Source: Shinisaurus crocodilurus
Taxonomy: Eukaryota > Chordata > Lepidosauria > Squamata > Shinisauridae
DNA length: 64,000 nt
Assembly (NCBI GenBank): GCA_021292165.1
Contig: JAHFWL010000295.1
Span: 25,717-89,716, forward strand
Direction of reading: 5' to 3'
In this document: positions 12,251 to 64,000 of the stretch, piece after piece
How the letters are laid out: each line of letters starts with the position of its first letter
How positions within the stretch are numbered: position 1 is the first letter of the stretch
Notes under the pieces: generated by a model
Databases searched by the model: none
The model's input: only the letters and a program-made list of their open reading frames with translations
What the model was told of the DNA's origin: nothing
Translations under genes and position numbers: made by a program

Positions 12251-12973
12251 TTTTTATTTAGAATGATACCAAGTTGTTTATCAGAGAAGGAATTTAGGGA
12301 ATGGCAAGCAATAATTAATAATTTTTGTAATTTAATTCAATTAGTACAATGGGGTAAGAAATGGAAGAGGAGAAATGAGCATGAAAGGGATTTCACCGCA
12401 TTTGAGCAGTTGGTTATGTCCAGAGAACTCGTAGAAGGAAATGCATCAGCTAGGGGTCTTACAAAGATGTTATATAAAATGTTGCAGAAATCAGAAGAGC
12501 AAGCAGAAAATCTTAAAATAGTTTGGGATACAGAGTTTGAAGAGGAAATATCAAAGGATGAGTGGAACAAGATTTGGGATAGGCAAATATTGAAAAATAT
12601 GTCTATAAGAATTAAAGAGAATTTTTATAAGCTAATTTGGCGATGGTATTTGACTCCAGTCAGATTAAATAGAATAGATAATAAATGTTCTCCAATGTGT
12701 TGGCGAGGGTGTCAGGAGTTGGGTACATATGCTCATATGTGGTGGAGTTGTAAAAATGTAATGGATTTTTGGAAAATGATTTTTGAGGAAATATCAGAAA
12801 CTGTTGGAGCTGATTTAGAGGTTTGTCCTAAACTAGCTTTGCTATCAATAACGGAAAAGGTGATCGGTCCTCAAAATGTTAAAGAATTAATTATAAACTT
12901 TTTAACGGCAGGTAGACTAATGATAGCAAGGAAATGGAAAATTCAGCAAGTTTTCACTATTACTGATTGGTAT
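12251..12973 (+). mobile_element. L1-clade LINE 3' end, first half (split by an ERV)
   Basis: This is an open frame for the same L1 ORF2 C-terminal domain as the preceding minus-strand copy ('RWYLTPVRLNRID', 'CWRGCQELGTYAHMWW', 'CPKLALLSITEK'). It stops at 12973 inside 'TDWY', where an LTR begins. The rest of the same L1 resumes at 19702 with 'KEVWDMALND', so the two pieces were once one element. Confidence 0.9.
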
Positions 12974-13483
12974 TGTTGTGGAAAAATTGATCTACTGCGT
13001 TGTGTTTTTAAGAGGTTCTTAGAGAGGAAAGTTTATTAGTGAATTCACGGATGGCATCTGAGCACAGTCAGGAATGCCAACAAGAACACAAGGGAGACAC
13101 TTCCATTTATACTGAATAATATCATGTAGAGGTCAGGTGACAATTGAGTCAGTACAGGAAACAGAGAGACAATTCAAAAGGAGACATTTAAACAAAACAA
13201 AAGAACAGGTATTGCCCATCTTCCAGCCATTATGCTAATCAGTAGTCTTTCCCAAGGTGATAATCCCAAAGTGATACTGGCTCACAGTACTTTTAGCATA
13301 AGCAGGAAAGAGGGTTAGGCAAATCAATAGATGGGTGATTTGCCCCCAGGGTTGTTCTACAGAAGGTCAAGGAAACGGTCTGACTCTTGACATGTCAGGA
13401 CATGTTTCTGTAAGGTAGAAGGAAAGCTCTGACTTCCAGGCCTTTCTGTTTAAACTAAAGCCTGGACAAATTTTACTTCTACA
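12974..13483 (-). repeat. 3' LTR of the minus-strand ERV
   Basis: On the plus strand it runs TGTTGTGG...TTCTACA, 510 bp. The purine tract on the minus strand (AAAATGGGGGAA, 13484-13495) adjoins it, which marks this as the 3' LTR. It is identical to 19192-19701 except at two sites (AGGAAACGG/AGGAAAGGG and GGAAAGCTC/GGAAAGGTC). Confidence 0.95.
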
Positions 13484-19187: not shown

Positions 19188-19191
19188 AGAT

Positions 19192-19701
19192 TGTTGTGGA
19201 AAAATTGATCTACTGCGTTGTGTTTTTAAGAGGTTCTTAGAGAGGAAAGTTTATTAGTGAATTCACGGATGGCATCTGAGCACAGTCAGGAATGCCAACA
19301 AGAACACAAGGGAGACACTTCCATTTATACTGAATAATATCATGTAGAGGTCAGGTGACAATTGAGTCAGTACAGGAAACAGAGAGACAATTCAAAAGGA
19401 GACATTTAAACAAAACAAAAGAACAGGTATTGCCCATCTTCCAGCCATTATGCTAATCAGTAGTCTTTCCCAAGGTGATAATCCCAAAGTGATACTGGCT
19501 CACAGTACTTTTAGCATAAGCAGGAAAGAGGGTTAGGCAAATCAATAGATGGGTGATTTGCCCCCAGGGTTGTTCTACAGAAGGTCAAGGAAAGGGTCTG
19601 ACTCTTGACATGTCAGGACATGTTTCTGTAAGGTAGAAGGAAAGGTCTGACTTCCAGGCCTTTCTGTTTAAACTAAAGCCTGGACAAATTTTACTTCTAC
19701 A
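19192..19701 (-). repeat. 5' LTR of the minus-strand ERV
   Basis: Direct copy of 12974-13483, 510 bp, adjoining the histidine-type primer site. It is followed on the plus strand by the GTAT target duplication and then the L1 remainder. Confidence 0.95.
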
Positions 19702-24715: not shown

Positions 24716-27700
24716 CTACCAATTTTCCTTCTTAATTGACGCTCTAAAAGCAAAACAGGCCACCTTTTCAGAGACAGGAGAACTATCCCCTAATAAAAAA
24801 TTAATCAAATACCTAACAGGTCTATTAGATGAAAGATCTAGGTCTATAAACAGGGCTGCTCTTAAGGTCTCGTAAATTGGGCAATCAAGTAGATAGTGAG
24901 GCAGGTCTTCAAGCACATTAGATCCACATGGGCAGACTCTCTCTTCTAGAGGGATCCAACCATAACGTCCTTCAAGTATGGCAGAGTTCATTGCCTGACA
25001 TCTTAAGGCTGTAAATGCCCTCCTCCATTTAAAGTTTGTAATATTAGATACATAATGTGGAAGAGAAGTTTGAATAGGCAATTTAGCATACCAAGGGGCA
25101 CATTTCGACAGGCAGGCAGAAGCACGGTTATCTCGAAAATCATGTTTTAAAATATGAGATTTCAGGTAACGTGCTGCCATTTCAAAACTTAAGGAGTTCA
25201 AGAGATCCAAAGAAAGTCCATACATATCAATCCTTTGTAGGATTTCTTGATTCCAAGATGGAGCCATTCTGTTATTAAAGTTCAACATTTCTCTAGAAGC
25301 AGATAATACTAAGGAAGATCCCCTCCCTTTTTGCAATTTCACCCAATATCTGATGGCAGAAATATGTACCCTGGACTTCACTGTACAAAGACCGGTTTCC
25401 AAGCGGAGAATGGAAGTCTCAGTTGACTTAGGGAGGTCGAGAATAGCTCGCAAAAATTTATTCTGGGGTGTTTCCAAGATCATTTTCTGAGTGCATCCCC
25501 ATATTTGCGCACCATAGCAAATTTGTGCTATTGCTTTAGCCTCATAGATTTTAATAGCTGGAAAAGTCTGTCTACCTCCTCTACCCCAGTAAAACCTTAG
25601 TAAGGAATTCACAGTATTAGTAGCCAGGTTTTTAACATTTTCGAGATGGTTATTCCAATTTCCGGTTGAGGAGAAACATAAACCTAAATATTTAAAGGAT
25701 TTCACCTGCTCTATAGGATGTCCATCAATTTGCCATCTGTGTTTTTTAAATCTATGAGCAAAAACCAATACTTTTGTCTTTTCGTAGTTAATTTTCAATT
25801 TTTCTTGCATTGCTAATTGATTAAAGGTTTTCAATAATCTCCTCAACCCTTGCTGTGTTTGAGACAACAAGATGGTATCATCAGCGTACATAAGTACTGT
25901 AACCTTCCTATTTTCCAATTTGGTGGCACATAATTATCCTTATTACTTAAATCAGTTATTAGAGAGTTAACATAAAAATTAAACAATAATGGAGCTAATA
26001 GACATCCTTGACGGACACCTTGCGTAGTTTGGATCAGGTCTGTGAGTGAACCTGAGCGGTCCATCCTAACTTGGATCTTAGTATTTGAATGGAGCTGCCG
26101 CATCAGCATCAATAATCTTTTATCGATAGATGTTTTGTTTAGTTTATCCCAAAGACGATCACGATTAATTGAATCCAAAGCTGCTGCAAAATCAATAAAT
26201 GCTACAAATAAACGTCTACGTTTCACCTTTACATACTTGTGAATCAAATGAGATAAAACAAAACAGTGATCTGTTGTTGAACGATCACGCTGAAAACCTG
26301 CCTGTTCTTCTGCAATTATCTCACTGGAATCAAGCCAATAAATAAGTTTCTTTGACAAGTATTTGGTGTATATTTTTGATGAAATGTCCAGCAAACTAAT
26401 GGGGCGATAGCTGGCTGGTTTACCTGGGTCACCTTTTTTAAATATAGGAACCACAATGCTGATATTCCATTGGGGAGGGAAATGGCCACTATTATTAATT
26501 TCTGTAAATAAAGCTGCAAGTATAGAGGCCCACCAGTTTGGGGCTGCTTTATAGACTTCCCCAACAACTCCGTCTTCCCCTGGTGCCTTCCCGTTCTTTA
26601 GGGTAGCAATTATTTCACAGATTTCATCAGGAGATACAGGGTCCCAAACTGGTAAATCTTCTCCAGCCACAATAGTATGTATATTATCCTTGTAAGGTTT
26701 CAGAAAGTGATCTTTGGAGGTTGATTCATTAAACAAGTCTCGAAAATGGGACTCCCATATGCATGAGGCGATATTTAGTTCAATCAATGAGTGGCCATTA
26801 AAGCTCAACTTATTGATGATTTTCCAAAATCTTTGTGAATCTGTACTTTGGGCTGCGATCAATAGCTCATTCCATTGTGTCTTAATATATAAGGACTTCT
26901 TGTGTCTTAGTAGCTTCTTATAGTTACTTCGTAGCTGACAATATTGAAAAATTGACCTAGGTGCTTGGGTTTTGCGAGCTATTCTTGCGGACGCTTGTAA
27001 CTTTGATTTGGCCAATTTGCATTCCCTATCATACCATCCAAAGGAAGAGGGTCTCGATAGGTGTGGGGGGTCTTTCTTAGAGAACAAAGGTTCTAATAAC
27101 AGTAGAATATCGGAAAACTGCATAATTAAATCTTTACAATCTGAATTATGGATAAAATTACTGCGTATTCGAAGTGATTTCTCATTATAAAGTATCCCTA
27201 ACATTTGGAGTTCCATCTGAGCTGTCCATCTAATTGTTTTAACGAAATTACAGTTCAAGTTGTTCTTGTTGATATCCTCCTGTAGTAGAGACAACTTGGG
27301 TGCCACAATAAGTGATAAACAGAGTGGATAATGATCACTCTCTGGATAACAGTATACTTCAAAACTATTGATATATGATATCAGATCACTGGATACTACC
27401 ATGTAATCAGTAACACTTCCTGCCCAGACAGAAAAAAAAGTGATATTACCAGGCTTATCATTAGGGTGGTTACCATTAAGGATATAGAAATTGTATTTCA
27501 TAATTATATTATAAAAAGCTTTACCGTAGGCATTAATCACACTATCCCTCGATTCCCTACCTGCATTCAAAGGGGAGGATTGGGATTGTACATTATGCAT
27601 GTTGAGCTTGCCCAAAAGGTACTCCTCATTTGGTCCAATACGCGCATTTAAATCTCCCATCAAAACAATGGATGCCCCCTGATTTATGAGCTCAAATTGT

Positions 27701-28182
27701 TCTATAAGTTCATCCAGTTCCTTCCAAGCATTACCATAGTTAGACTTAGAGTTCCTGGGTGGTATATAAATATTTATCAAATAGATGTTAATATGAATAT
27801 CTAGATTACATATGTTCACACATTGAATATTAGGGCTAGTCACATTAATCTCAACACATTTTATATTGTATTTGGTTGATACATAAATAAGCAAGCCACC
27901 GCTTGGCTGGCCATATTTTGCCAGCTTACAAGCAGGCTTCAGCCAGTGATTATAACCCTCAAGGCTAATGCTAAGGTGCTCAGAGCAGATCCAAGTTTCT
28001 TGAAGGCTAATGATAGAATAGTTCTTCAAAAATGTGGTTATCTCCTTATCAACTATTTTATTGGACAGTCCTGCTACATTCCATGAGAGTAACTTGTAGC
28101 GGAAGTCTGAGATGGTGTCCAAGTTTGATAAAGGGAGAAGCTGATAATTCCCATCTAATAATGTCCTCTCATGATGTCCCAA
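24716..28182 (-). pseudogene. LINE ORF2: AP endonuclease plus reverse transcriptase, one frameshift
   Basis: The N-terminal part (start 28182) is an AP-type endonuclease with LLSWNVAGLS, LQETW, GDLNARIG, a TDYM-type aspartate and SDHYPL. The RT follows with NGKAPGEDG, VPIFKKGD, YRPISLLD, EEQAGFQ, a FIDF-type block and TTQGVRQGCLLAPLLFNFYVN. A frameshift near 25840-25920 puts the YADD catalytic box (YADDTILLSQ) in a second frame, which runs to 24716. The C-terminus has a CPCGSN...HYLLDC zinc-knuckle-like motif. Total length would be about 1150 residues. The single visible break suggests a fairly young insertion. Confidence 0.88.
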
Positions 28183-28227
28183 TCGATTAAGAGAAACAGG
28201 AGGATTAGCTCCATTTTCCTTACTCTG

Positions 28228-33009: not shown

Positions 33010-33190
33010 GCCTCAAAGGCCTCTCCCTATCCACCAATTTCCCCTTGAAAATCCTCCTTCCATAATTAGGACTAAGAGGCAAGCCCAGGGTTTTTCTCGC
33101 TCTGACCTACCTGGACTAACCAAGAGTGCAAATGAGAAGACCAATTGAGATCTCCAGATCTCTTCCTCAGGCGTGATGCCAATCTTAGAC
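33010..33190 (-). pseudogene. Truncated tandem copy of a defensin first exon and its intron start
   Basis: On the minus strand CTTCTCATTTGCACTCTTG followed by GTTAGTCCAG|GTAGG repeats the second half of the signal exon at 33575 and its donor. The following intron bases are alike as well. The ATG half is missing. Copy B keeps the same fragment at about 61820-61880, where it runs into copia sequence. Confidence 0.6.
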
Positions 33191-33574
33191 CTCTGAATTT
33201 GCAGAATGAGTAACTTCACCATAAAGTCAAGGATTCCCCCGCCCCCCGTCGCCCCCTTCACCTGCTTTTTCATAAGACACACATATGGGACACTTAATTT
33301 GCAGAGCCGGCTTCCAAAACCCAATTTTTCCCAGCCACCACAAATGTGGAAATGGGAGAAATGGAGAGCCCTGCAAATGCTCCTTTCTGATCGTTTCCCC
33401 CCAGAAAGCTTTCCCACCCCCATCCCTTGGCTCAAAGTGGCCAAGGGGGCAGTTTCAGGGGAGAATAAGTGGGAGAGGGAAGGGTGAAGCACCTCTTCCT
33501 GACCACCAGTTTTCTCTCAGAAATGCTCCTTCTATTACTAGCATGATGAGGCAAACCAAGGAGTTTTCTCCTAC

Positions 33575-33632
33575 CTGGAGTAATCAAGAGTGCAAATGAG
33601 AAAACAACAAACAGAAGGAGAATCTTTGTCAT
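33575..33632 (-). CDS. Beta-defensin-like signal-peptide exon, copy A
   Basis: First coding exon of a defensin-type secreted peptide. It runs from ATG at 33632 and reads MTKILLLFVVFSFALLITP, a lysine followed by an unbroken hydrophobic signal core. It ends in phase 1 at CCAG|GTAGG. Length is exactly 58 bp, like the other three first exons in this window. I found no mature-peptide exon downstream (below 33.5 kb), where a hAT and a LINE now lie, so the gene may be incomplete or its second exon outside recognition. Upstream, where the expressed-looking paralogue has its TATA box, sits an (ATT)n microsatellite. It is nearly identical to the exon at 62303-62360. Confidence 0.75.
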
Positions 33633-33693
33633 GGTTGATGCTGGAATCTCAGGATCGCTGGACAGATGGGACCCCGAACCTGCAAGGAAGCCG

Positions 33694-33694
33694 T

Positions 33695-33734
<40 letters not shown>
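33694..33734. repeat. (AAT)n microsatellite at a defensin promoter position
   Basis: About 13 triplets, 62-102 bases upstream of the exon ATG at 33632. The counterpart in copy B lies at about 62424-62466. Confidence 0.9.
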
Positions 33735-33735
<1 letters not shown>

Positions 33736-33896
33736 CCCCATCACTGTTGCACACAGGTGGTGATTTTCATGGGAGTCATGCAGGGAGGGCCATCTTTCGC
33801 GGCTGTGCCCCCACTCCCGCAGCACTCCTGTGTGGCAATTAGGCTTTTAAAATTGCTTCCATTGGCACCCATGGAACATTTTATATAATCCTAATT

Positions 33897-35352
33897 GTTG
33901 CATGGGAGGGGGTATTTTGGGGGGGAGAGTTAACTCTTCCTTCCCCAGCTGTGCCCCCCATCACCCCATGTGGCAATTAAAAAACTTTTAAAGGACTAAT
34001 TGCTCCGTGGGGGGTGGGGCAGGAAGGGATGTCGTGGGCCAGATGGGAAGGCCACACTGGCTGCATGTTCCCCACTTCTGCTGTAAGAGCTCCTTCGTGG
34101 TTATGTTCACTTACTCGAGATATGAATTAGGGCAGAGAGCCTAGAACAGGCCCAAGGGCAGTGCAGCTGGGTTGGGGCTGGAGAACTCCGATAGGTGCAG
34201 GGGCAGAGCCCAGCAGTGTCGAGGGGCAGAATCCTGCACAAAAGCTGTATATTTGCCTAAGTGTACAGACATCCTTGGTATTTTTTTAAAGAAACAGGAG
34301 GTGAATAAATACAGACTTGCCAGTGTCGTGGTGTAGTTAGAGTAGGACTGGAGAAACCCGGGTTCAGATCCCCACTCTGCCATGCTGCTGACCTTGGGCC
34401 AGTTGATATCTCTAAGCCTATCCCACCTCACAGGGTTGTCGTGATGATAACATGGGAAGGGAGAAGGGATGGGCCATGTACAAAACATCCAGTCCAAGCT
34501 GGCACTCAGAAGTGACATTAAAGCAGTAAACCCAACTTGTTGATGCAGGAGGAATAATAAGAGGGTTTGTTGAATATCTGCTCATTACTGCTAAAGCGGC
34601 ACATGCCCCTTCTGGCCCGGCCTGGGCTGGAGGAGAGCCTTTGCAAGTGTCGCATTCCTAATAAAGCATGCGCCATTCATTTCATTACCTTTTGCTGGAA
34701 TGAATCCCTGAGTTTTATTTCCTTGAAAGCGTCATGGCTGTCTCGCTGGAACCCTGAACAAGAGCACCCTGAGCTGAAACATTCGTTGCAGGTGACACTT
34801 GGAATTTGACAAACCTGAATGTAGTCTGCCCTTTAATCATTCTTCTTCTTTTTTCTTTCTCTAAATGAAAACACCCCCAAATGCTTTAGATTTTCCTCGT
34901 AGGGAAGGAATCGCAAAGCCCTGGAATATTTTGATGGGCCCCTTTCCGCATGTTTTCCACCCCATGTGTCCCCTTCTACACCTGTCAACTATTGGCGGGC
35001 ATGTGACAATGGCTTTTGCTCTCCCTTTCCCAGAAAGCCTCTTGTTTCACCATCCTTGTCTTGCACAGCCTGGGCCACAATCCATTGGCTAATTGGGCCG
35101 AGCTGGGAAGAAGGGTATGTGCAAAAGGACATTTCTCCAGCAATGAAGAAATCAGTTCCTGTCTGTTAAAAATGTGGGTTCTGTTTAACAGATCTGGTTC
35201 CCTGGTTTCACTTGCAAAAACGGTGTGTTGGCAGCTTCCAAAAAGGTGGTGTAGTTCCTAAGCAAAGGCTTCACTTAAACAACGGAGGCTGCTCCAGTGG
35301 TCCTGCATCACATACATAAGACGAGGCCTGACCGTGTCTTATCAATCAGATC
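33897..35352. other. Block present only in duplication copy A; contains a SINE
   Basis: I see no gene. A tRNA-headed SINE lies at about 34318-34460 (GGTGTAGTTAGAGT, GGGTTCAGATCCCC, then CCTTGGGCCAGTT and CTCACAGGGTTGTCGTGA). The remainder has only short frames. Confidence 0.55.
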
Positions 35353-36905
35353 TGCAGAATACTCTGACAGCTGCAAGCTAGGTAGGATGTAAAATTAATA
35401 AGATATGCAAAGACCCATTTCCGAAGTGATTTCCCCCTCCAAATAGGCAGAACACACCCTCCAGGTGCAGCTATGAATGGGCTGAAGAGGGGTTTTGCAA
35501 GTATCACCTTCATGAACCTCATCGACTGGACCGAGCACCCATTCACAGGAAATATTTCCCCTTTGTTTAAGGGTGGCGCAACAACACAGTCCTTTCACGT
35601 TAGGCCCAGTTGCATAAACCCTGCTCAGGCTAAGCACAAACACCTAAAAACCTGAGGGGAGGGTCGAATGAAACCCTTTCCCTACATACGAGGGGAAAGA
35701 ACAATAAAGTTGATCAAAGTTCTATTTTGAATATACGGTATTCTACTATCAAGGTGTCTGTATGTAGGCTCAACAGTAATGTAGGTTAATAACGCCAAGC
35801 GGACCACGTTGGATTAGGGTAGCAAACAAAATAAAAATCAGTTTATTTTAATTCCCAAAATCTTAGTTCCAGGAAAAAAACCTTCAAACCTGCCTACCCA
35901 ACCACCAACAGACAAGACAAGACTACAACAAGAACCAGCATAATATTAATAACTGACATCACTCAATCCCCCTTATATTCTCCTCCCCCACCCTTTCTAA
36001 GACATAATAGATTTCATAGATCATAGAGTTGGAAGGAGCCTACAAGGCTATCGAGTCCAACCCCCTGCTCAGTGCAGGAAACTAGAGGAGGGGTCTCCCA
36101 TCCAAGTAATAACCAGGCCCGACCCTGCTTAGCTTTCCACGCTCAGACAAGCTGAGCCAGCGTGAACCAACCACACCCACTCTTTCAACATTCTAGACTC
36201 ACCAAACATACTAACGCTGACATACACCAGGGAACCGAACTGTGAGGTTATGCCACAAATTGGTCTAATAAAGTACATTGCTGAAGTTCATGGTCTGTGG
36301 ACCAGAGCTACAATTCTCAGCACTTAAGATTTTTTGCGCACCTATTGTGATTTGGACAATCAGGCATGGCATCAACCCAGGTTTTCTGGATCAATGCCTG
36401 CCGTAGTTTGTAGGGCATATTCAAACAGCTTTGCCACAAGACACTTGGGCTCTTGGCGCCTCTAGGTTCCGCTGTCAGAGTTCCAGCTATTCCCTCCCAG
36501 GGAAGGTAAACCCCAGCATCCTGCTCACCCTCAACATTCCCAGAGAGAGACAACGGCTCCTGCAGAGGGTATGGACTGCTGAGTTTCTGACTGGGTTCAC
36601 ACCACACGGCAACCCACGATGGGCAGCCAGACATGGTGGGTTGTCGTATCGTTCAAATTTGGCGTGTCCTCCACAGGGAGGCTTAATTTTCCTCAAATAA
36701 GCCACCCCGAGAACCCATGGCTTGTTGCAGGGTTGTTCATACCCATGATGGGTTGTTGTGCTGTCCGAACCCGGAACAGTGATTTTAACGTGGGTTGTTA
36801 AATAAGCCACCCCAGCTGGGGCATGCTGGGAGTTGTAGGCCGAAAACACCTGGGGACCCAAAAATGGAGAACAGTGCTCTAGACCTGTCTTCCCCAACCT
36901 GGTGC

Positions 36906-37890
36906 CCTCCAGTTGTGTTGGTCTACAGCCCTATCATGCCTTGGATTGAGAGTATAATTCGCTCCGGAAACGTGCTTGTAATCCAAAACACTCTTATATC
37001 AAAACGAAATCCCCCCAAAAAATTTGTACAGAGATTTTTAATTTAAGCTGTACATACTACAGTACTTGTATTGCAAGACGTCGCTTGTATATCAAGTAAA
37101 AAATAAATAAATAAATATTTTAAAATGTGCTTGTCTTGCAAAACGCTCTCAAACCAAGTTACTTGCAATCCAAGGTAATACTGCAGCTGTATTGTTGTAC
37201 AGTTGTAGTCCAATACTTCTGGAGGGCACCAGTTGGGGGAAAGCTGACCAGTGGCGGCTGGTGCCCAGTTTGGCTGGTGAGGCAGAGGCTGGTCAGCAGA
37301 GGAGGAGCTGGGGGGTGAGCAGAGGTCATGCCATCTGCCCAGGACATCTCTGTGTTCCACAGAGTGGCCAGGGCACTGACAGAGCACCAGCCATACCAGG
37401 AGGAAAATCCCCCAGAGCCATCTGAAATCCATCAGAATCCATTCGCCTCCACGGGAGGAAATTTCAATAGATCAGCTCACCCATGCAGAGGGGAAAAGCT
37501 GCTAAAAGTCTAAACCATGACAGGAAATGATCTGACCATGGCAAGGGAATCGATTTTACACCCCCCACATTCAGATCACCATCCTCCCGCCCAGCTGAGA
37601 AAATCACACTGAGAATGTGACCCGCCACATGCGTTGGGCTGATGACGTGCTGGGGCAGCTGCATGGTTGTCATGGTAGCCACAATTAGTCATCAGCTGCC
37701 CCAGATCCAATGGCTTCAGCAGGCATGTGAAGGTCTCCCAGAAATATCATCCTGGGCTGGGAGAACATCTCTGTCAGCGCAGCCAGCGAGAATAACTGTG
37801 CATGTTGAGTCCACATTGGCATGTTTTTTAGGGTCCCCACCCCCTTTGAGTGTTTTTTTTTGTGTGTAAATATTTGTTGTGCTTCTAAAC
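36906..37890. other. No gene recognised; repeat fragments
   Basis: A squamate repeat of the form CCAACCTGGTGCCCTCCAG (about 36893-36912) appears in reverse at about 37195-37240. Between them lies an AT-rich insert with the related motifs ACGTGCTTGTAATCCAAAACACTC and GTGCTTGTCTTGCAAAACGCTC. The remainder has short frames only. Confidence 0.4.
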
Positions 37891-42493: not shown

Positions 42494-43014
42494 ATGTGAA
42501 TGAGTGAATCGGGTTATGGTTAGTTCCAAGAATGGTACATCCCCTCCCTCACCTCCACAGGGTGGAGCAGCAAGAAAAATGGTTGTACCCGCGCCCACTA
42601 CCTCCGGCAACAGATTAAAGTAGAGTCTGGGAGGGTCAATGCATGACATGATGAATTCATGTCATGGGTTAAGTGATTCTGCATGCTAGGGGAGGAGGCA
42701 GAGAATGTGAGAGACAGATGCTCTTTGCAGCCATATCTCCCATAATATTGAGTTATGGTCTCAGGTAAGAGGAGTGGGGAAGACTGTCTATTGTCTGTGG
42801 TAAATGGAAAGAGACAAGAACAAAAATCAAGGATTGTGATCCAACATTGAGAAAACTGGAATTCTCCAACCTCTTTGAAGCATGTGAATTTGCATACATT
42901 TCATTTCCCTATTTTGCATTGTGTATTCTGCTTCTGATCCTGTTGGGGAATGGGAAAGAACCCATGCAGGACACTGACCACTCTGTACAACATTTCCCTT
43001 GAGGGACTTTGGCC

Positions 43015-43148
43015 TCACCTTTTGCAGCAGGGTCTGTAAAGAGTGCAATTCTCAATGGTAGAGGTGCCCAGAGGACAAAAGAAGAAGAAGCAGAAGCCCC
43101 TTTTAGCGAAACATGTGTCGAACCCATCTGTCAATTCTTGGGTGTTCC
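43015..43148 (-). CDS. Beta-defensin mature-peptide exon (exon 2)
   Basis: Second exon of a secreted antimicrobial beta-defensin. It starts after the acceptor TTTTCTTTCCACAG in phase 1, so it joins the first exon at 47594 without a break, and ends at TGA (43015-43017). It encodes an acidic propiece (NTQELTDGFDT) and the core with all six cysteines spaced C-x6-C-x4-C-x9-C-x5-CC, including the Gly-x-Cys (GFC) of the fold. The full protein would be 63 residues, normal for the family. The core is cationic (three Arg, two Lys, one Glu). Four phenylalanines fill the x4 loop, which is unusual. The stop overlaps a good donor (AAAAG|GTGAGG), so a short third exon, as in crotamine-type genes, is possible. 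Confidence 0.88.
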
Positions 43149-43256
43149 CTGTGGAAAGAAAACAAGATGATTGAGATGTTGGTTGTGGTGCAAAGCAGGA
43201 TGACTGAGGGGTTGGGGGAACGTAGATATATTTGGGCCAGTTTAGAATCCTCCTCC

Positions 43257-43432
43257 TTACCTATGTACCTGTCTCCTTTCAGGGTCAAGGAATGCTCTCC
43301 CACCTGGTTTTGTATGTTTGCAGCACCTTGCCTTGCAGTAAGCAGGGCCTATTGGCTAGCACCTATGAGAGTGGCAATATTTCCGTATCCTTCTTTTCAT
43401 TAAATACTTTACAGTCCCCCAACTGTATTTCC
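43257..43432 (-). pseudogene. Possible decayed second defensin exon
   Basis: It lies about 110 bases upstream of the mature exon on the same strand. After a long pyrimidine tract and AG (at 43433-43434) a phase-1 frame opens with a very basic stretch (KRRIRKYC). Cysteine codons follow at 43374-43376, 43359-43361, 43335-43337 and the pair at 43320-43325, giving C-x4-C-x7-C-x3-CC. One TAG (43356-43358) lies right after the second of these. The first beta-defensin cysteine is absent and the later spacings are short. It may be a dead duplicate exon, an ovodefensin-like relic, or chance. Confidence 0.33.
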
Positions 43433-43631
43433 CTAAAAAAAAGAAAGAAAAAAAAGAAGTCCCAACCCACTAGTAGACTAGATAACAACTCTGGACTACA
43501 CTGCTTTGATGTCATGAGTTCTCTCCTTCCCATGGACTACTTTGCCATGCTGACATAACCCATAGTCAGCCCCGGTGCTCCACTCCCCATCCCACCTCAA
43601 ACATAATAACATTGGCATCACTGTTTACATC

Positions 43632-44298
43632 TATAGATAAGACAGCACATATCCCTAATGATTGGGGAGTAGCAATTATCATACCAAACTAAAAAAAGGT
43701 GATAGGAATGATCCAGCAAATTACAGACCCATTAGCCTTTTAAATATTATTGATAAACTATATGCGAGACACTTGCGTTGGAAGCCGTGTGAATGCATGG
43801 AAGAAGAGAGCTTTCTTGAGGATGAACAAGCAGGTTTTAGGGCAGGAAGATCTGCTTTAGATCACTGCCTGATTTTGCAGCACTTAGCAGAAAAATATAC
43901 CCGCAGTACCCGCAGTCTCGGCTATATGCCCGCTTTGCAGGCTTCAAAGCGGCGTTTGATTCGATCTCAAGACCTTTCTTATGGAACAAACTTAAAAAAC
44001 TCCACAATTGACAAACGCTTACTATTGCTGATGTTGAAACTGTACAATAACACAAGGCTCAGAGTGAGATGTAATCGTGATGGCCAGCTCTGTAATTCAA
44101 TTGCAGTAAACAAGGGAGTCAGGTATCTGTTTAACACATATATAAATTCCTGAATTAAACGGCTTCAAGACCTGGATACACATGCTCCAAAAATGGCAAA
44201 TAAAAGACTACCTATACTGCTTTCCGCAGATGATGCCGTGATCCTTTCCCTGACCCAAATAGGACTCAGAAGAGCCTTGAAGGCTCGAGAGTCTAGCC

Positions 44299-44334
<36 letters not shown>

Positions 44335-45935
44335 GCAATCACTCTTGACTGAGTAAGATTGTCTTCCAGGGTAAAAATTTACAAAAAGGAGATTTTAAAA
44401 GGAGGAAATTTATTTTAAAGAAAATTGTGTAGACCCTAGCGCTGGGTCCGTAAGTGACTGTGGAGGCCAATTCTAGATCCACACAGCTTCCCACAGTGAG
44501 GACACAGGTTACCAGATGGAAGATGGCCCTGTAAAGGATTCATTTGACGTGCTTTTTGCTTAGCACATTTCTCCCTTTCACCTTGCACTCGGGCTTCTTC
44601 AAAGTCCATAGAACCTTTGTGAAAGGCCAACCTCCAGTTAGATTGTTCATGGGCTAGAGCTTATTGCAAGGAAGAACGATTACAAATCAGCTACTCTAAA
44701 ACTAAGATCCTGATTTTTACTAATAGTACTATTTATTATATTATATTTATTTATTATATTTATTAATCGCCCATCTGGCCGGTCACCCGTACTAAGACCC
44801 ATAGGTGGCGCATAGATAATAATGATATAGAACAAGTCACCTGTTTTAAATATCTGGGTGTCGTTTTCCAAGCTTCTAGAAGGAAAACTGCCCAGGCTAA
44901 CTATGCTTCCACACTTGCCAAGAAAAGCACAGCAGCAATCCTGAAGTTTTTCCGGACGCGGGGAGGGAATTTTATTCCAGCTGCAATCAAATGGTTTATG
45001 GCAAAACTGAGAGCACAATTGCTTTATGGAGCACAATTAGGTCCCTTTTCAAAATTTGTTATTGACGAAATAATACAATCGGGTTTCCTAAGGTCACTAT
45101 TTCTGACACCCAGATGCCTCCCAAATGCGGCTCTGCGAATGGAGAGTGGTCTACTGAGAATCGAAGCTATTGTGTGGCTAACCACCTTATTTACTTGGCT
45201 TAGACTTAATTTGGCTCCAACTGGGTTGCTTTCCTTAATTTTACAAGACAATGACCAAACAAAATGGGGGAACACCACCATAGCTGACAAATTTCACTCA
45301 TACGATTTCTCATCTGAATATTTGCTAAATCTAGGACTGGAAAAAGCTAAAGATATTATTAAGCAGCGGATCTGGGATATAGAACTTCAGAATGATTTAA
45401 GCCAAATCCTATATATTTACCGCTCCCCCCGCGATATACAGAGCAGTGGTCCTGCGGCTCATCTAAGTTCTCTTACCTATTATAAATACAGATGGGCGTT
45501 CACTAGGGCTCGCTTTAATGCTCTCCCCTCAAAGCTTCTAGAAGGTAGATATCAAAACATACCAGTCGCTCAGAGGCTGTGTCCATGTGACTCAGGTGAG
45601 ATAGAGACAATTTCACATGTCCTTTTATATTGTTTGTTCTACTTAGATGCCCGGTCAAGCTTAATCCATCCCTTGTTACTTGATCTTCCAGGTAATTCTG
45701 ATGAATTTTACACCAAGTATCTTCTATCAGACATAGACCCCTCTATAACCTATAAAGTTGCCAAATGTTGTTTTTTGGCTACGCCTTAATCTTATAATTT
45801 CTTAGGCCTGGTTTAAAACAGCGGGAAAGGGCCAGAACCTTGGTACTGTATAGATTTAGTGTGTCTGTTGTCTGTAGACTTCTGTTTATGCTGGCCTTGG
45901 ACCGTAATAAAGATTTGATTGTTTTGATTGATAAT
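43632..45935 (+). mobile_element. APE-type LINE, 5'-truncated, inside the defensin intron
   Basis: The RT part (KKGDRNDPANYRPISLLN, EDEQAGFRAGRSALDHC, a GVR block) is frame-broken. The post-RT part is one open frame (44998-45789) with AQLLYGAQLG, ALRMESGLLRIEA, LEGRYQNIPVAQRLCPCDSGE and HVLLYC. It is the same clade as the 24.6-30.3 kb LINE. An antisense insert (about 44297-44665) interrupts the RT. The 3' end is near AATAAAGATTTGATTG. It lies in the intron of the 43.0-47.7 kb defensin, opposite to the gene. Confidence 0.85.
44297..44665 (-). mobile_element. 3' end of a LINE with (ATG)n tail and C2H2-like finger
   Basis: Antisense insert in the LINE. The minus-strand frame 44630-44436 ends with CPHCGKLCGSRIGLHSHLR, a zinc-finger-like motif that I recall from the C-termini of some vertebrate LINE proteins. 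A 3' UTR and a GATGATGATG tail (plus strand (ATC)n at about 44299-44335) follow. The parent clade is not identified. Confidence 0.6.
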
Positions 45936-46100
45936 AAGGGCATAATGGCAGACTTTATTTATATTGGCAGAGATTTCTTTTAATGACTGCAAACACAGTA
46001 AAAAAAGAAAAGAAAATGTGATTTATTTCATTAAATTTGACCAGAACTAGAAAGAACATGACTTCTTGTCTTTCCTGGTACCCATGGTTTAGGGCTGGAT

Positions 46101-46367
46101 ATTTTATTATTTATTTATTATATTTATACCCTGCCTTTTCTCCTGCAAGGAACCCAAGGTGGCTTACATAATCATCATCCTCCTCCTCCTCCTCCTTCTC
46201 CTCCTCTCCATTTTATGCTCACAACAACCCTGTGAGGTAGGTTAGGCTGAGAGTCAGTGACTGGCCCAAAGTCACCCAGTGAGTTTCATGGCTGAGTGGG
46301 GACTAGAACCCGGATCTCCCGAGTCCCAATCCAACACTCTCACCACTATGCCACACTGGCTCTCCCC
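46101..46367 (-). mobile_element. tRNA-derived SINE, full length
   Basis: The minus strand starts GGGAGAGCCAGTGTGGC with A box (CATAGTGGTGAGAGT) and B box (GGGTTCTAGTCCCC). It continues CTCACAGGGTTGTTGTGAG and ends with CACCTTGGGTTCC...GGTATAAAT and an AATAAATA tail. This is the common squamate SINE layout. A CCT-rich run interrupts it. Confidence 0.85.
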
Positions 46368-46465
46368 CAGGCACAACCACCCAGACACAACCACACCCAA
46401 ATTCAGGATTTACCAATTGTTTTCTATGGGTGGCAATCACTATTCCATGGGAGTAGACCACAAAA

Positions 46466-47045
46466 CAAGAAAAAGGAAAAGAAGGTGGGTGGGTTAGAAA
46501 TGAACCAGGAAGTCCCTGCCTCAGACAAGTATTCACTGACTGTACACTCATCTCTACGGCCAAATGTTTATCATAGCTGCGACTTCACTCATTGGCTAAA
46601 CACAATGAAGCAGGCAGGGGTCTCATTACTAGCAAAATGACTGGACAAATGCAATTGTCCATTGTGCCTAAACATTTTGCATCATATCTCAGGTTCTGTA
46701 AGGTCTAGACACTTGCTCTTTTGTATTTGAAAGCAGCAAGCAGGAAATCTGGGCTAGTGTCGGTATCACACCAATTGCAGGAAGGCTTTCTAATTTTTTT
46801 CTTAGGAAATAGCATGTTCAAGCAAAATGATTTTGATCAGACTCCTAGTGGTTGAGAGGGGGGCTTTAATCCCCCCCCCGATATAGCCATGATCCAAATT
46901 GCCCCCAAGCCTGCTATTTGTATTGGGAGGAAAACTCCCATTGGCTCTGATGGAGAGCAACTTGCCCCAAGTCATCTTCACTGACTGAGGATTCAACCTC
47001 TCCTCTTGCAATCCAGCACACTCTCTGCCACCCTATACTACACTG
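46466..47045. repeat. Duplicated block D1 (pairs with about 50960-51340)
   Basis: Both blocks share GGTGGGTGGGTT(A/C)GAAATGAACCAGG, TATCATAGCTG(C/T)GACTTCACTCATTG, GAGAGGGGGGCTTTAATCCC and GAGGATTCAACCTCTCC. D2 is shorter by a deletion in the middle. D1 lies about 600 bp from a defensin first exon. Confidence 0.85.
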
Positions 47046-47593
47046 GGACACTACTTTTACTACGGAAGGAGACAGCAAATAATTTCTATTTTTCTATAAA
47101 AACTAAAAACAGAACTCTTTGCCTCGATATATTCCTTTCAATGTGAAAGCACAGGCTGAGAAGGTTTGGTAGTAGTTTTTTGGGGGTAACAGCATAGCTA
47201 GCACCTAATTACGGAGGTTTATTGTTCTAGCAACTTCCAAATACCTCCTCTGTGGGGTGCTTGCAGAGAGAGGGCTCCTAGCATTAGCACTCAGATGGCA
47301 TTGTGCAGCTGTTCAGTCTTTTTCTCCTTAACAGATTTTCGGCATTAAGAGAAAAGATGGAAGAAGTCGTAAGAAAACATGGGACGGCCGCAACTGGACG
47401 AGGATGGCGCCTGCCCACTTGACCTGTAACTGCCTCTGAATGAGGCAGCACAATGGCACCATAAAAACATCATCTAGAAGCACCCTTTATGTCATGGAGG
47501 TGCTGATAGAGGGAGACAAGATTATCCTGCTGGCCCGGTTTGATCTTCATTATTGAGACACTCATTAATATTCCTCCCCTTTATTCCTCTTAC

Positions 47594-47651
47594 CTGGCCC
47601 AGGCTGGAGCACAAGGAGAAAAACAGCAAAGAGCAGGTAAAAGATCTTCAT
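47594..47651 (-). CDS. Beta-defensin signal-peptide exon (exon 1 of the intact gene)
   Basis: First exon of the gene completed by 43015-43148. The ATG at 47651 opens MKIFYLLFAVFLLVLQPGP, a short Lys-plus-hydrophobic signal peptide of the form usual for beta-defensins. The exon ends in phase 1 at CCAG|GTAAG. Joined to the exon at 43148 it keeps frame and gives a 63-residue prepropeptide. The intron is about 4.4 kb and holds a LINE, a SINE and other repeats, but no obstacle to splicing that I can see. The start is chosen because it is the only ATG in frame and lies 80 bp from a TATA box. Expression in mucosa or leukocytes would be typical of the family, but nothing in the sequence shows it. Confidence 0.85.
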
Positions 47652-47730
47652 CTCAGGATTCGTTCAGCACCCAATCCCAGGATTTGTTAAGCACCGAATA
47701 ATATGGCTCATGGGTTTGGCCACACGGCTC

Positions 47731-55519: not shown

Positions 55520-55577
55520 CTAGACCAACCAGAAGCGACAAGAAGAGAACTATGAAAAGAATGGACAAGACCCTCAT
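55520..55577 (-). CDS. Beta-defensin-like signal-peptide exon
   Basis: The ATG at 55577 opens MRVLSILFIVLFLSLLVGL, a strong short signal peptide. The exon ends in phase 1 at CTAG|GTAAG and is 58 bp long, like its three relatives. A solo LTR starts about 24 bases into the intron. I scanned the minus strand between 47.7 and 55.5 kb for the six-cysteine pattern and found none, so the second exon is either lost, too diverged, or displaced. A pyrimidine-rich AG (CGCCTCTCTTTCAG) 25 bases before the ATG could mark a separate 5' leader exon. Alternatively the CAAATAAGAGC at 55655-55663 is a weak TATA box. Confidence 0.7.
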
Positions 55578-55599
55578 GGTAGAAGTTGTGTTTTGGAGC

Positions 55600-56626
55600 A
55601 ACTGAAAGAGAGGCGATAAAAAGAGACAAGTCATAATTCCGAGTAAGACACAAGCTCTTATTTGTCATCCATTACTAACAGGAGAATTCAGTGGGAGAAT
55701 GTGTGGAGGGTAGGATTAGACCTGTCACAAGTAAAAAGCTGTAGCACCCTCTTTTGGCCACACCTGGCTGAGCTGTAGTAATTCCAAAGCATAAAACAAC
55801 AATAACAACGCAATAAAATGCAGACAAAACATGGAAGCAATGGATATTGTAGTTATCAGCCACATAAGAGATGCACCTCTTAGGATGCTAACCAAGATGT
55901 CAGAGTCAAAGATGAAATGGGAACAAGCACAGGGGTTCACATTTAATTTACAGAGAGTCCTTATTCACCTCCTGATTGTGGGTAGTGGTGAAACCCTCAA
56001 ATTTGTTGAGAATTCTTTTTCATGTGGAATTCATGTTCTTCTGTTTGATCCAGAAACCACACTGCAATAGTGTGGACTCCCAGGTAAGTGTGCTTAATTT
56101 TGGTAAGTATCAGTGGTTCCAAATTGGATTAAAATAGGGGGAAAACACTCTACAAGTGGGGATACACAAAGAATTGTGCATGAATGGAAGGACCACAAAA
56201 CGCCTCTCTATACTTTTACAACCTTATTTCCTACAGTGAAATATAACTATTTTCAACAGTGGCCCTGTAATACTCACAGTCCTCTAAGATTCCAGCATGG
56301 GACAAAGATACTCCAGCTGTTTGTAAATCAGGCGTTTCTTGCTTCAACTCACGGTGTCAGGCAGACAATGTCATGGCCACTTCTAATTCCCTTATATTCT
56401 TTACTACTGCAACGTGTTCTCCTGCCACTGGCTCCATTTTAAACTTCCAGTTTTTCCTGAACACTGCCTGCCTTGACATACTTAGCAAAGAGTTCAGCTT
56501 AAGCAAAGAGCAGCAGCGAAGACAAAAGTGAACAGAATGTATCCAAGCCAGACAGCCGAGAGAATTAAGGCCGGCTTCCAGATAGAGAACAGCACCTAGC
56601 CACACACTTGGGCATGCCAAATATAG
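55600..56626. other. No gene recognised
   Basis: Short frames only. I looked here for the second exon of the 62.3-kb gene and did not find a convincing one. Confidence 0.4.

Positions 56627-59001: not shown

Positions 59002-59002
<1 letters not shown>

Positions 59003-59040
<38 letters not shown>
59003..59040. repeat. (TG)n microsatellite
   Basis: About 18 TG units between CR1 and copia sequence. Confidence 0.92.
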
Positions 59041-59045
<5 letters not shown>

Positions 59046-59048
59046 ATA

Positions 59049-61795
59049 TATGAATAATACATTCAAGAAGTTTTTGGTGGATGAGGGGATTAGGCACAAG
59101 GTGACAGCCCCCAACTCTCCTTTCCAGAATGGTGTAACAGAAAGACACAACAGAACACTCCAGGACATGATGAGGGCTGAATTGGCTGACTCCAAGTTGG
59201 GAAACCATTTCTGGGGGGAAGCACTTTCTAATGCTAACTATTTGCTGAACAGATTACCTCATTCCACAACTGGGAAAACTCCATATGAAATGTTTCATGG
59301 AAGGAAGCCAAAGATAGCACATATACGAATTTTTGGGTGCAAATGTTTTGTCATGTACAGGCTCAAAACAGAACAAAGCTGTCTCCCAGAGGCTTTGAAT
59401 GCTTTCTGCTGGGGTATGATGGACAAACAAAAGGTTACAGACTGTGGTCACCAAAACACAACAAGGTAATTCTGAGCAGAGATGTGATTTTTCATGAACA
59501 AACACATGAAAGCAACAGCTGGTGGTTTTGCCAATGCATTCAATGGCTGAGACACAGCTGGATCGTTCTGAAACAGAACATGCCACTGAGCAGATACCTG
59601 AGGAACAGGGGGGGGGGGGGAGGTGAGCCATCTCTGAGGCGTTCAACCGGAGAACGTAAAGCACGTGTTAGATATCAGGATGAATTCCAAAGTGGTAAAA
59701 CTGTTGAACATAAAGCTCTTAAAGTTGCTTTTGGACCCCCAAAGTTTTGAAGAAATCCAAAGCATGGAACCAGCAGTGAGAGATGATTGGTTTGAGCCCA
59801 TGCAGGATGAAATCAATGCCATGCATGTAACAAAACATGCAGTCTGGTATCTTTACCTGTGGGGCGAAAAGCCATCATCTGTAAATGGGTCGTACAAGGT
59901 GAAACAAAATGACAAGGGGCAGGTGGAAAGGTACAGGCAAGGTTGTGGCAATGGGGATTGCTCAAAGGCATGGAATAGATTATGATTCCGTGTTTGCACC
60001 ACCACAAGGTACTGCCATAGTGAGATTGTTGTTGAAACTTGCATCAGAAAAACAAATGATGGTATCTCATTTTGATGTGAACACTGCTTTCCTATATGGT
60101 GATTTACAGGAAGAAATCTACATGGTACAACCACAAGGTTTTGTAGAAAATCCTGAGCTTGTGTGTTGGCTTAATAAATCCATATATGGCTTGAAATAAG
60201 CAGCATGCTGCTGGAACAAAACAAAACAAACTGGACAGTGTTTTGGTTAGTTTGGGATTCAAACAAAGCAAAGCTGATCACTGTCTGTACACATGTCACA
60301 CAGAATTGGGGCATGGGTTTTCTACTGGTATTTGTAGATGTCTTATTGATCACAGAATCATCTGGTCAACAAGACAACATTGCAAAGAATTGCAAGCACA
60401 CTTTGAACTGAAAGATCTTGGTTTGGTTAAACACTATCTTGAAATGCAGCTATCCCAGGATGAGGAGGGATCTTTCTTGGTTGAGCAAGTGGGAAAATTC
60501 AGAAATTGCTAGAGAATCATGGGTTGGAGCTGTTGGGTTTTGCATAGGCAGAACGAGATTACCACCTGACATCAGGATTATCACCTGACATGGAGGATGT
60601 CTCTTGAGATGAAGTACACAAAGTCTTAGTCACGAGACCTAGTCTCAAGGTGATATGACTCAGCAGCCTTGGACAGGTTTGGAATCAACATGTTGATGAA
60701 TAGGTATACAACTGGGGTGAGTAATATCCTATGTATAGGTGCAGGGTCTGTGGTATAAATCTAACACACTTGTTGATAGCTTCACTCCTCTCTCTCCTCT
60801 CGTCTCACTCGACTTGACTTGTTCTGGACTTCACTTCATCTAGCCTTACCACTGGGGTATTGGATTTGTATCTGCAATGATGTAGTGAGTAAGAGATGCA
60901 TTGCTTGCCTTAATCCCATGTAATTGGGTTTTACAAATAAACTCTTTCTTTATTAACTGCTGTTATCTCCTCCCTTCCGCCTGCGTGACTGGGACTGAGG
61001 GTCACTGGCTAGGGAAGCTTTTGAACCCGGGTCAGTCCAGCTCTCACAGGAGGATTGTAATCCAGTTACCACTCCAATGACTCTTGAATATCAAAAACAC
61101 ACAGATAACACTGAATTTGAAGATATTGGAAAATTCAGAGTGTTATTCGATGTATTTGGCGAATGTGAGTAGGCCTGACATCAGCAATGCTGTAAACATC
61201 CTTAGCAGGAAAACACAAAATCCTTCTATGTATGATTGGCTCACTGTGAAGCGTGTTCGAGATACATAAAAGGTTCCATGAATTGCAAACTGAAATTGTC
61301 AACACACACAGAGGGAGTTTTTGTGTGTACACAGATGCTGATTGGGGCTCTGCAACAGACAGGAAATCCACAAGCGGGACTGTGTTCATGTATGATAAGT
61401 CTCATTGATTGGTATACAAGAAAACAATCCTGTGTGGCTGTGTCTAGTGCAGGATCTGAATTTATCAGTTTATTTCATGCATATAATGAGGTTATTGGTT
61501 CAAACAATACTGATTTGCAATTACCAGTAGCCAAGGCTGTTACAATTTTGGAAGACAACCAAGCTTGTATTAGCATGGCAAAAACTGCAAAGTGTAAGCC
61601 AAGAACCAACACATTGATGTACGTTACTCTCATGCAAAGAACTGTATTCAGAGAGGGTGGTGACACTCACATACTGTGCAACAGGGGACATGGTGGCAGA
61701 TCTTTTTACAAAACCATTACCTGTAGTAAGACACAGGATGCTAATGTCGGCGCTAGGCCTCATTGAGTAATGTCAAACAAATTGTACTCAGTTTG
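59049..61795 (+). pseudogene. Ty1/copia-type pol fossil (integrase, RT, RNase H)
   Basis: A copia-order polyprotein in broken frames. Integrase end: GIRHKVTAPNSPFQNGVTER and PYEMFHGRKP...FGC (59049-59350), with the Ty1/copia GYRLW...VILSRDVIF block (about 59420-59490). RT: QDEINAM, YDSVFAPP, FDVNTAFLYGDLQEEIYM, SIYGLK followed by TAA (to about 60200). Domain end and RNase H: RPDISNAVNIL, a DADWGSATDRKSTSG-type block read across frames, SSAGSEF and TILEDNQACI (61090-61770). Integrase before RT is diagnostic of copia. Neither LTR is visible. A solo LTR (60531-61048) interrupts it. Confidence 0.88.
60531..61048 (+). repeat. Solo LTR inside the copia fossil, 518 bp
   Basis: TGTTGGGTTTTGC...CTCTCACA ends, flanked by GGAGC (60526-60530) and GGAGG (61049-61053), a 5-bp duplication with one mismatch. 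It has a TATAAAT box (about 60753) and an AATAAA signal (about 60937). Removing it lets the copia reading continue from the ENHG region to the DCNPVTTP region. Confidence 0.75.
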
Positions 61796-62302
61796 TGGGG
61801 GGTTGTTGTGATGTGCAAGCCCAGGGTTTTTCACGCTTTGACCTACCTGGGCTAACCAAGATGCAAATGAGAACACCAATTGAGATCTCCAGATCTCTTC
61901 CTCAGGCGTGATGCCATCTTGGGACTCTGAATTTGCAGAATGTGTAACTTCACCATAAAGTCAAGGATTCCCCCCACCCCCGTCGCCCCCTTCCCTGCTT
62001 TTTCATAAGACACACATATGGGACACTTAATTTGCAGAGCCGGCTTCCAAAACCCAATTTTTCCCAGCCACCACAAGTGTGGAAATGGAGAAATGGAGAG
62101 CCCTGCAAATGCGCCTTCCTGATCGTTTCCCCCAAAAGCTTTCCCACCCCCATCCCTTGGCTCAAAGTGGCCAAGGGGGCAGTTTCAAGGGAGAATAAGT
62201 GGGAGAGGGAAGGGTGAAGCACCTCTTCCTGACCACCAGTTTTCTCAGAAATGCTCCTTCTATTACTAGCATGATGAGGCAAACCAAGGAGTTTTCTCCT
62301 AC

Positions 62303-62360
62303 CTGGAGTAATCAAGAGTGCAAATGAGAAAACAACAAACAGAAGGAGAATCTTCGTCAT
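62303..62360 (-). CDS. Beta-defensin-like signal-peptide exon, copy B
   Basis: Duplicate of 33575-33632: the same 19 codons (one silent difference near the start, CTTCGTCAT against CTTTGTCAT) and the same CCAG|GTAGG donor in phase 1, 58 bp. Downstream on the minus strand the duplicated intron ends in copia sequence at about 61810, and no mature exon is found before 55.6 kb. The gene is probably decapitated of its second exon. An (AAT)n run lies upstream as in copy A. Confidence 0.75.
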
Positions 62361-62420
62361 GGTTGATGCTGGAATCTCAGGATCGCTGGACAGATGGGAC
62401 CCCAACCTGCAAGGAAGCCG

Positions 62421-62423
<3 letters not shown>

Positions 62424-62466
<43 letters not shown>
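62424..62466. repeat. (AAT)n microsatellite, copy B
   Basis: About 14 triplets, 64-106 bases upstream of the exon ATG; longer by about one unit than in copy A. Confidence 0.9.
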
Positions 62467-62470
<4 letters not shown>

Positions 62471-64000
62471 CCCCATCACTGTTGCACACGGTGGTGATTT
62501 TCATGGGAGTCATGCAGGGAGGGCCACCTTTCGCGGCTGTGCCCCCCTCCCGCAGCACTCCTGTGTGGCAATTAGGCTTTTAAAATCGCTTCCATTGGCA
62601 CCCATGGAACATTATAATCAGAGCTGCAGAATACTCTGACAGCTGCAAGCTAGGCAGGATGTAAAATTAATAAGATATGCAAAGACCCATTTCCGAAGTG
62701 ATTTCCCCTCCGAATAGGCAGAACACACCTCCAGGTGCAGCTATGAATGGGCTGAAGAGGGGTTTTGCAAGTATCACCTTCATGAACCTCATCGACTGAC
62801 GAGCACCCATTCACAGGAATATTTCCCCTTTGTTTAAGGATGGCGCAACAACACAGTCCTTTCACTTTAGGCCCAGTTGCATAAACCCTTCTCAGGCTAA
62901 GCACAAACACCTAAAAACCTGAGGGGAGGGTCGAATGAAACCCTTTCCCTACATACGAGGGGAAAGAACAATAAAGTTGATCAAAGTTCTATTTTGAATA
63001 TACCGTATTCTACTGTGGGTATCAAGGTGTGTGGCTCAACAGTAATGTAGGTTAATAACGCCAAGCTGACACGTAGGATTTGGGTAGCAAACAAAATAAA
63101 AATCACTTTATTTTAATTCCCAAAATCTTAGTTCCAGGAAAAAACCCTTCAAACCTGCCTACCCAACCACCAACAGACAAGACAAGACTACAACAAGAAC
63201 CAGAATAATAAATAACTGACATCACTCAATCCCCCTTATATACTCCTCCCCCACCTTTTCTAAGACATCGCTAACCACACCACTCTTTCAACATTCTAGG
63301 CTCACCAAACATACTAATGTTGACATACACCAGGGACCTGAACTGTGAGGTTATCCACAAATTGGTCTAGTAAAGTACATTGTTGAAGTTCATGGTCTGT
63401 GGACCAGAGCTACAATTCTCAGCACTTAGATTTTTTGCGCAGCTATTGTGATTTGGATAATCAGGCATGGCATCAACCCAGGTTTTCTGGATCAATGCCT
63501 GCCGTAGTTTGTAGGCATATTCAAACAGCTTTGCCCCAAGACACTTGGGCTCTTGGCGCCTCTAGGTTCCGCTGCAGAGTTCCAGCTATTCCCTCCCAGG
63601 GAAGGTAAACCTCAGCATCCTGCTCACCCAGTCAATCCCAGAGAGAGACAACGGCTCCTGCAGAGGGTATGGACTGCTGAGTTTCTGACTGGGTTCGCAC
63701 CACACAGCAACCCACGATGGGCAGCCAGCCATGGTGGGTTGTCGTATCCTTCAAACGTGGCGTCTCCTCCAGGGTGGCTTAATTTTCCTCAAAAGCCACC
63801 CGAGAACCCATGGCTTGTTGTAGGGTTGTTCATACCCATGATGGGTTGTTGTGCTGTCCGAACCCGGAACAGTGATTTTAACGTGGGTTGTTAAATAAGC
63901 CACCCCAGTTGGGGCATGCTGGGAGTTTGTAGCCCGAAAACACCTGGGGACCCAAAATGGAGAACAGTGCTCTAGACCTGTCCTCCCCCAACCTGGTGCC

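Follow-up and report, generated by a model that had tools for sequence, protein, structure and literature searches.

The question raised by this locus is whether it holds a beta-defensin gene on its minus strand and, if so, where the coding sequence of that gene would end. Being short, split, and quick to evolve, reptile beta-defensin genes may escape automatic annotation. The original prediction placed an apparently intact beta-defensin gene of two exons within the window, that is, the whole stretch of 64,000 nucleotides of Shinisaurus crocodilurus DNA that was analyzed. The reading favored here is of a putative sauropsid-type beta-defensin gene with a TATA box in front and with its frame and splice sites whole. 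Exon 1 would encode most of the signal peptide and exon 2 the six-cysteine domain, with the two separated by a phase-1 intron of 4.4 kb that was probably enlarged by a transposon; a short phase-2 intron, with an apparent TGA stop within its donor, would then lead to a short exon 3 encoding a basic tail. The gene would give a secreted product, with the signal cleaved near GNT/Q; its cysteines would pair into three disulfides in the folded peptide, and by analogy with other beta-defensins it may act on microbial membranes. Statements on published genes below draw on excerpts of the sources cited.

Exons 1 and 2, the first intron and the putative promoter

Both exons were found where they had been predicted, at 47594–47651 and 43015–43148 of the minus strand (Table 1). 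Exon 1 consists of 58 nt encoding MKIFYLLFAVFLLVLQPGP plus one nucleotide (phase 1), the signal peptide being called solely by hydrophobicity. The exon 2 acceptor, TTTTCTTTCCACAG/, follows in the matching phase (here and below, a slash in a splice site marks the exon boundary). The good splice sites of the original prediction were borne out as well: when sites on both strands of the window were ranked with simple consensus matrices, the exon 1 donor stood 12th of 6,593 GTs and the exon 2 acceptor 13th of 8,737 AGs. From this acceptor the frame is open to a TGA at 43017–43015. Joining the two exons reproduced the predicted prepropeptide of 63 residues, MKIFYLLFAVFLLVLQPGPGNTQELTDGFDTCFAKRGFCFFFFCPLGTSTIENCTLYRPCCKR, with the cysteine spacing C-x6-C-x4-C-x9-C-x5-CC.

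A TATA box had been placed 80 bp from the ATG; a TATAAA is indeed present, and the true distance, from its first base to the A of the ATG, is 87 bp. It presumably serves as the promoter of an expressed gene. At 47650–47699, within the likely 5' untranslated region, 2.1 repeats (84%) of a 24-bp unit extend to the exon 1 ATG.

The first intron is long in comparison to that of Sistrurus miliarius, for which about 400 or 1100 bp is given in the available part of PMC9952678. Within it, a weak match to RVT_1 was seen at 43662–44153 in the opposite orientation (plus strand; E 3.1e-04, 21 bits, below the Pfam cutoff of 29.6) that is probably a LINE, while a domain search assigned no family to 44767–45786.

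Table 1. Positions within the window of the elements of the proposed gene and of the exon-1-like orphans
Feature	Position	Strand	Remarks
TATAAA	47733–47738	minus	Starts 87 bp before the A of the ATG
Exon 1, coding part	47594–47651	minus	ATG, 19 signal-peptide residues plus 1 nt, donor CAG/GTAAGA
Intron 1	43149–47593	minus	4445 bp, phase 1
Exon 2 (three-exon model)	43019–43148	minus	Remainder of the signal peptide, a short propiece, and the domain with six cysteines
TGA (two-exon stop)	43015–43017	minus	Part of donor AAG/GTGAGG, probably intronic
Proposed intron 2	42940–43018	minus	79 bp, phase 2, proposed from splice-site scores
Proposed exon 3, coding part	42909–42939	minus	Would complete Arg and add IRSRIHNAK, then TAG; from splice sites
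Alternative exon 3 start	42788–42794	minus	Acceptor rank 40 of 8,737; would complete Arg and add Gln, then TAG
Exon-1-like orphan	55520–55577	minus	MRVLSILFIVLFLSLLVGL plus 1 nt, phase-1 donor
Exon-1-like orphan	62303–62360	minus	MTKILLLFVVFSFALLITP plus 1 nt
Exon-1-like orphan	33575–33632	minus	Same peptide as 62303–62360, within a 95% identical duplicated segment

Family membership and likeness to known defensins

The predicted assignment to the beta-defensins was upheld by several lines of evidence. The Pfam family Beta defensin (Defensin_beta, PF00711) matched residues 31–62 of the precursor with 24 bits against a cutoff of 21 (E 4e-05). A Komodo dragon profile, for which 45 of the 66 peptides in Table 2 of PMC6716921 were used as excerpted, placed exon 2 first among the 2,672 stop-to-stop segments of the window (E 2.6e-06; runner-up E 0.2). 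The expectation that exon 2 would outscore shuffled sequence was also confirmed: none of 2,000 free shuffles reached the real profile score, and 8 of 2,000 shuffles that kept the cysteines did so, indicating that the cysteine pattern accounts for most of what the profile detects. In tblastn searches with the same 45 peptides, 23 matched exon 2 (best E 8.5e-08), and the alignment of one of these, VkBD48, extended beyond the TGA. The spacing 6-4-9-5-CC falls within the six-cysteine motif C-x6-C-x(3-5)-C-x(8-10)-C-x(5-7)-CC, and a signal peptide on a separate exon followed by a phase-1 intron, here after 58 nt, is a beta-defensin trait. One residue departs from the pattern, as Gly-x-Cys4 is absent, with Glu replacing Gly two residues before Cys4; this Gly is common rather than obligatory, being present in 39 and missing from 6 of the 45 peptides compared from the Komodo dragon. 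Net charge (K+R-D-E) is weakly positive in the short form of the peptide (+1) and reaches +4 in the long form, so the mature peptide is positive in both, as are 53 of the 66 Komodo peptides (PMC6716921, as excerpted).

It is exceedingly improbable that open frames resemble a defensin here by chance. The exons are short, and shuffles that keep the cysteines sometimes equal the real score (the 8 of 2,000 above). Against this, none of the 300 windows produced by first-order shuffling held the cysteine array, E-values were low with both Pfam and the reptile profile, the phases agree, and the splice sites rank high. Exon-1-like open frames of exactly 58 nt with a hydrophobic core and a phase-1 donor number four in the window, all on the minus strand, against an average of 0.03 and never more than 1 in shuffled windows, a count for which the limits on length and hydrophobicity were set after the candidates had been seen. 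Because the two exons join in phase, PF00711 is matched above its cutoff, and the Komodo profile ranks exon 2 first with the shuffle controls described, beta-defensin identity is well supported at the sequence level, and the gene appears to be a further beta-defensin of the kind usual in reptiles and birds.

Among Komodo dragon peptides in the available part of PMC6716921 Table 2, VkBD58 and VkBD60, from the scaffold 7 cluster, share the 6-4-9-5 spacing, and these two together with VkBD56 have a run of aromatic residues between Cys2 and Cys3 like that of the present peptide. VkBD56 scored best of the 45 compared, with 13 of 32 aligned residues identical (about 40%), but has an extra Cys beside Cys1 that the present peptide lacks. 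A further difference is that Glu stands here in place of the Gly before Cys4. A last loop of five residues is the commonest, occurring in 42 of the 66 Komodo genes of that table, while the consensus quoted in the same paper has x6, one residue longer than here (PMC6716921, in excerpt). Snake beta-defensins likewise have a signal exon, a phase-1 intron and six cysteines, and exist in two- or three-exon form; they show a GNA motif where the present peptide has GNT, begin the mature peptide with Gln with one exception, as is likely here, and are noted for a conserved Gly, in contrast to the present peptide with none before Cys4 (PMC9952678, sections available). The likeness to snake genes is not meant to imply a role in venom.

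Comparison with solved structures yielded less. In a PDB sequence search the matches were weak; the avian beta-defensins AvBD3, gallinacin-2, and spheniscin-2 were the best of those listed and spanned the six-cysteine domain, at E 0.11 (avian beta-defensin 3) and worse, and defensins made up 4 of the 8 matches listed. The beta-defensin fold has a three-stranded sheet with Cys1–5, Cys2–4, and Cys3–6 disulfides. An AlphaFold prediction for exon 2 alone from a single sequence gave three strands with a mean pLDDT of 60.7 and had no fold matches in the PDB; its quality was too poor for it to be used as support, and it was set aside. A lone sub-threshold NCBIfam match, to an unrelated bacterial enzyme, was discarded. 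Six short pieces of the peptide had no occurrence as exact strings in the literature text searched.

The 3' end of the gene

Of the predicted two-exon beta-defensin, the family stands, while the number of exons is the less likely of two: the TGA that would end exon 2 sits in AAG/GTGAGG, and 79 bp further along lies a strong acceptor. This donor belongs to the top six of the 6,593 GTs, tied with one plus-strand site. If it is used, exon 2 stops two bases into a codon split AG/G, giving a phase-2 intron, and the acceptor, TCTTTCCCATTCCCCAACAG/, ranks 19th of the 8,737 AGs. Splice sites thus point to a second intron and a third exon, which would give a precursor of 72 residues with a basic tail. 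Counting any frame on both strands, the 5,976 stop codons of the window include 6 that are no more than 6 nt from an equally strong donor; 2 of these also have a comparably strong acceptor 60–400 nt downstream, and the TGA at 43017–43015 is included each time. Against the second intron, 79 bp is short for an intron of a vertebrate. The last intron of viperid defensin genes is of phase 2. Among the literature matches listed, as excerpted, no statement was found on the phase of exon 3 in viperid defensin genes.

Published gene structures include both forms. According to the Komodo dragon paper, beta-defensin genes are built from two exons or from three, in which case the last is short (PMC6716921, in excerpt). 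In snakes, the genes of Boidae, Elapidae, and Colubridae are described with two exons and those of Viperidae with three, although two-exon genes have nonetheless been reported from the viperid Sistrurus miliarius (PMC9952678, available sections). The excerpted text of PMC2846878 and PMC9138766 does not mention a short final exon. Three-exon fish genes described in a paper on cod (PMC3636224, in part) were considered as support for the proposed intron 2 and rejected, as their last intron lies elsewhere, between Cys4 and Cys5.

A gene of two coding exons, in which exon 2 would run to the TGA and into a 3' untranslated region to give a 63-residue precursor ending in CCKR, finds its precedent in the boid, elapid, and colubrid genes of PMC9952678 (as excerpted) and in the Komodo peptides examined, five of 45 of which end in CCKR; in 37 of 45 the C-terminus lies no more than two residues past the last Cys, making a long tail the minority form. 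The Komodo gene structures are, however, labelled "subject to confirmation" (PMC6716921, in excerpt), and the stop of the two-exon gene would fall within one of the strongest donors of the window, which is in phase 2 and is followed after 79 bp by a strong acceptor. A two-exon structure is accordingly considered somewhat unlikely, and a reptile-type beta-defensin gene of three exons is the preferred and probable explanation of the locus as a whole. With three exons, the peptide likely has a slightly longer, basic tail than first read. Neither AATAAA nor ATTAAA occurs within 3.7 kb downstream, the first being at 39219, and this holds for both exon models.

Both ends might instead be used. The last donor would then double as a stop codon, such that retention of the 79-bp intron yields a short, near-neutral peptide ending in CCKR and its removal, with two competing acceptors, yields either the basic tail or Gln; the two orphan first exons situated upstream at 55520–55577 and 62303–62360, which likewise end in phase 1, could in addition be joined to this exon 2 in place of exon 1. 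This combination is quite unlikely; if it were true, one splicing choice would set the charge of an antimicrobial peptide. More generally, the present case suggests that where AG/GTGA gives rise to an in-frame "R-stop", a gene of this type may be misread at its 3' end; this could alter the C-termini, and with them the charge, that are predicted for other reptile defensins when annotation relies on genomic DNA alone.

Orphan first exons and neighboring elements

Beyond the proposed gene, three exon-1-like sequences lie on the same strand (Table 1), suggesting a possible defensin cluster to which the gene may belong. Their donors are in the top 1.1% of GTs in the window. Acceptor-like sites are found 24–47 bp upstream of their ATGs (55520–55601, 62303–62406, and 33575–33679), ranking 63rd (strong), 256th, and 256th (both moderate) of 8,737, and perhaps point to an additional noncoding first exon. 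A second six-cysteine exon that could serve the orphans was not found in the window by regular expression, by the Komodo profile (next best E 0.2), or by tblastn of the 45 Komodo peptides, for which the next best match, at E 0.001 over 14 residues, was taken as chance among 45 queries. A looser cysteine frame at 59458–59556 was rejected as an exon 2 for its extra cysteines and wrong layout, and a C-terminal look-alike, SLYHPCC at 58650–58630, was rejected as lying in a repeat 95% identical to 8787–9329. Two of the orphans fall in a segmental duplication (33079–36906 and 61815–64000, about 94–95% identical, the left copy interrupted), each copy of which holds the same exon-1-like frame and a degenerate remnant of a second exon 1 (33109–33144; about 61862–61879). 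The orphan first exons would fit a defensin cluster with birth-and-death turnover.

Such turnover would leave dead copies near orphan first exons, and the gene itself could be a recently dead or never expressed copy, in which the frame is open yet the promoter, the 3' end, or the intron is damaged. This would be compatible with either gene model. The three orphans in the same window are in keeping with it, as are the weak reverse-transcriptase match in intron 1, the lack of a canonical polyA signal nearby, and the loss of the conserved Gly before Cys4; the coding and splice elements, on the other hand, are whole and rank with the strongest in the window, and the gene has a TATA box, making a dead copy unlikely. 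The word intact, as applied in the original prediction, is true solely of the reading frame and splice sites.

Elsewhere, the window contains no tRNA genes and no Rfam families at gathering score. Its transposon content, like the type of defensin, points to a reptile and probably a squamate. Mobile elements are represented by long LINE frames at 24719–28227 (minus), whose endonuclease and reverse-transcriptase domains are distributed across overlapping frames, and by pieces of RNase H and integrase domains in separate frames at 1264–2979 (plus), from an LTR element or a retrovirus-like pol. An integrase fragment with a retroviral-polymerase SH3-like domain at 59002–59466 (plus) is probably of copia type. 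Two 512-bp direct copies, at 12972–13483 and 19190–19701, are 99.6% identical, which suggests a recent insertion or long terminal repeats.
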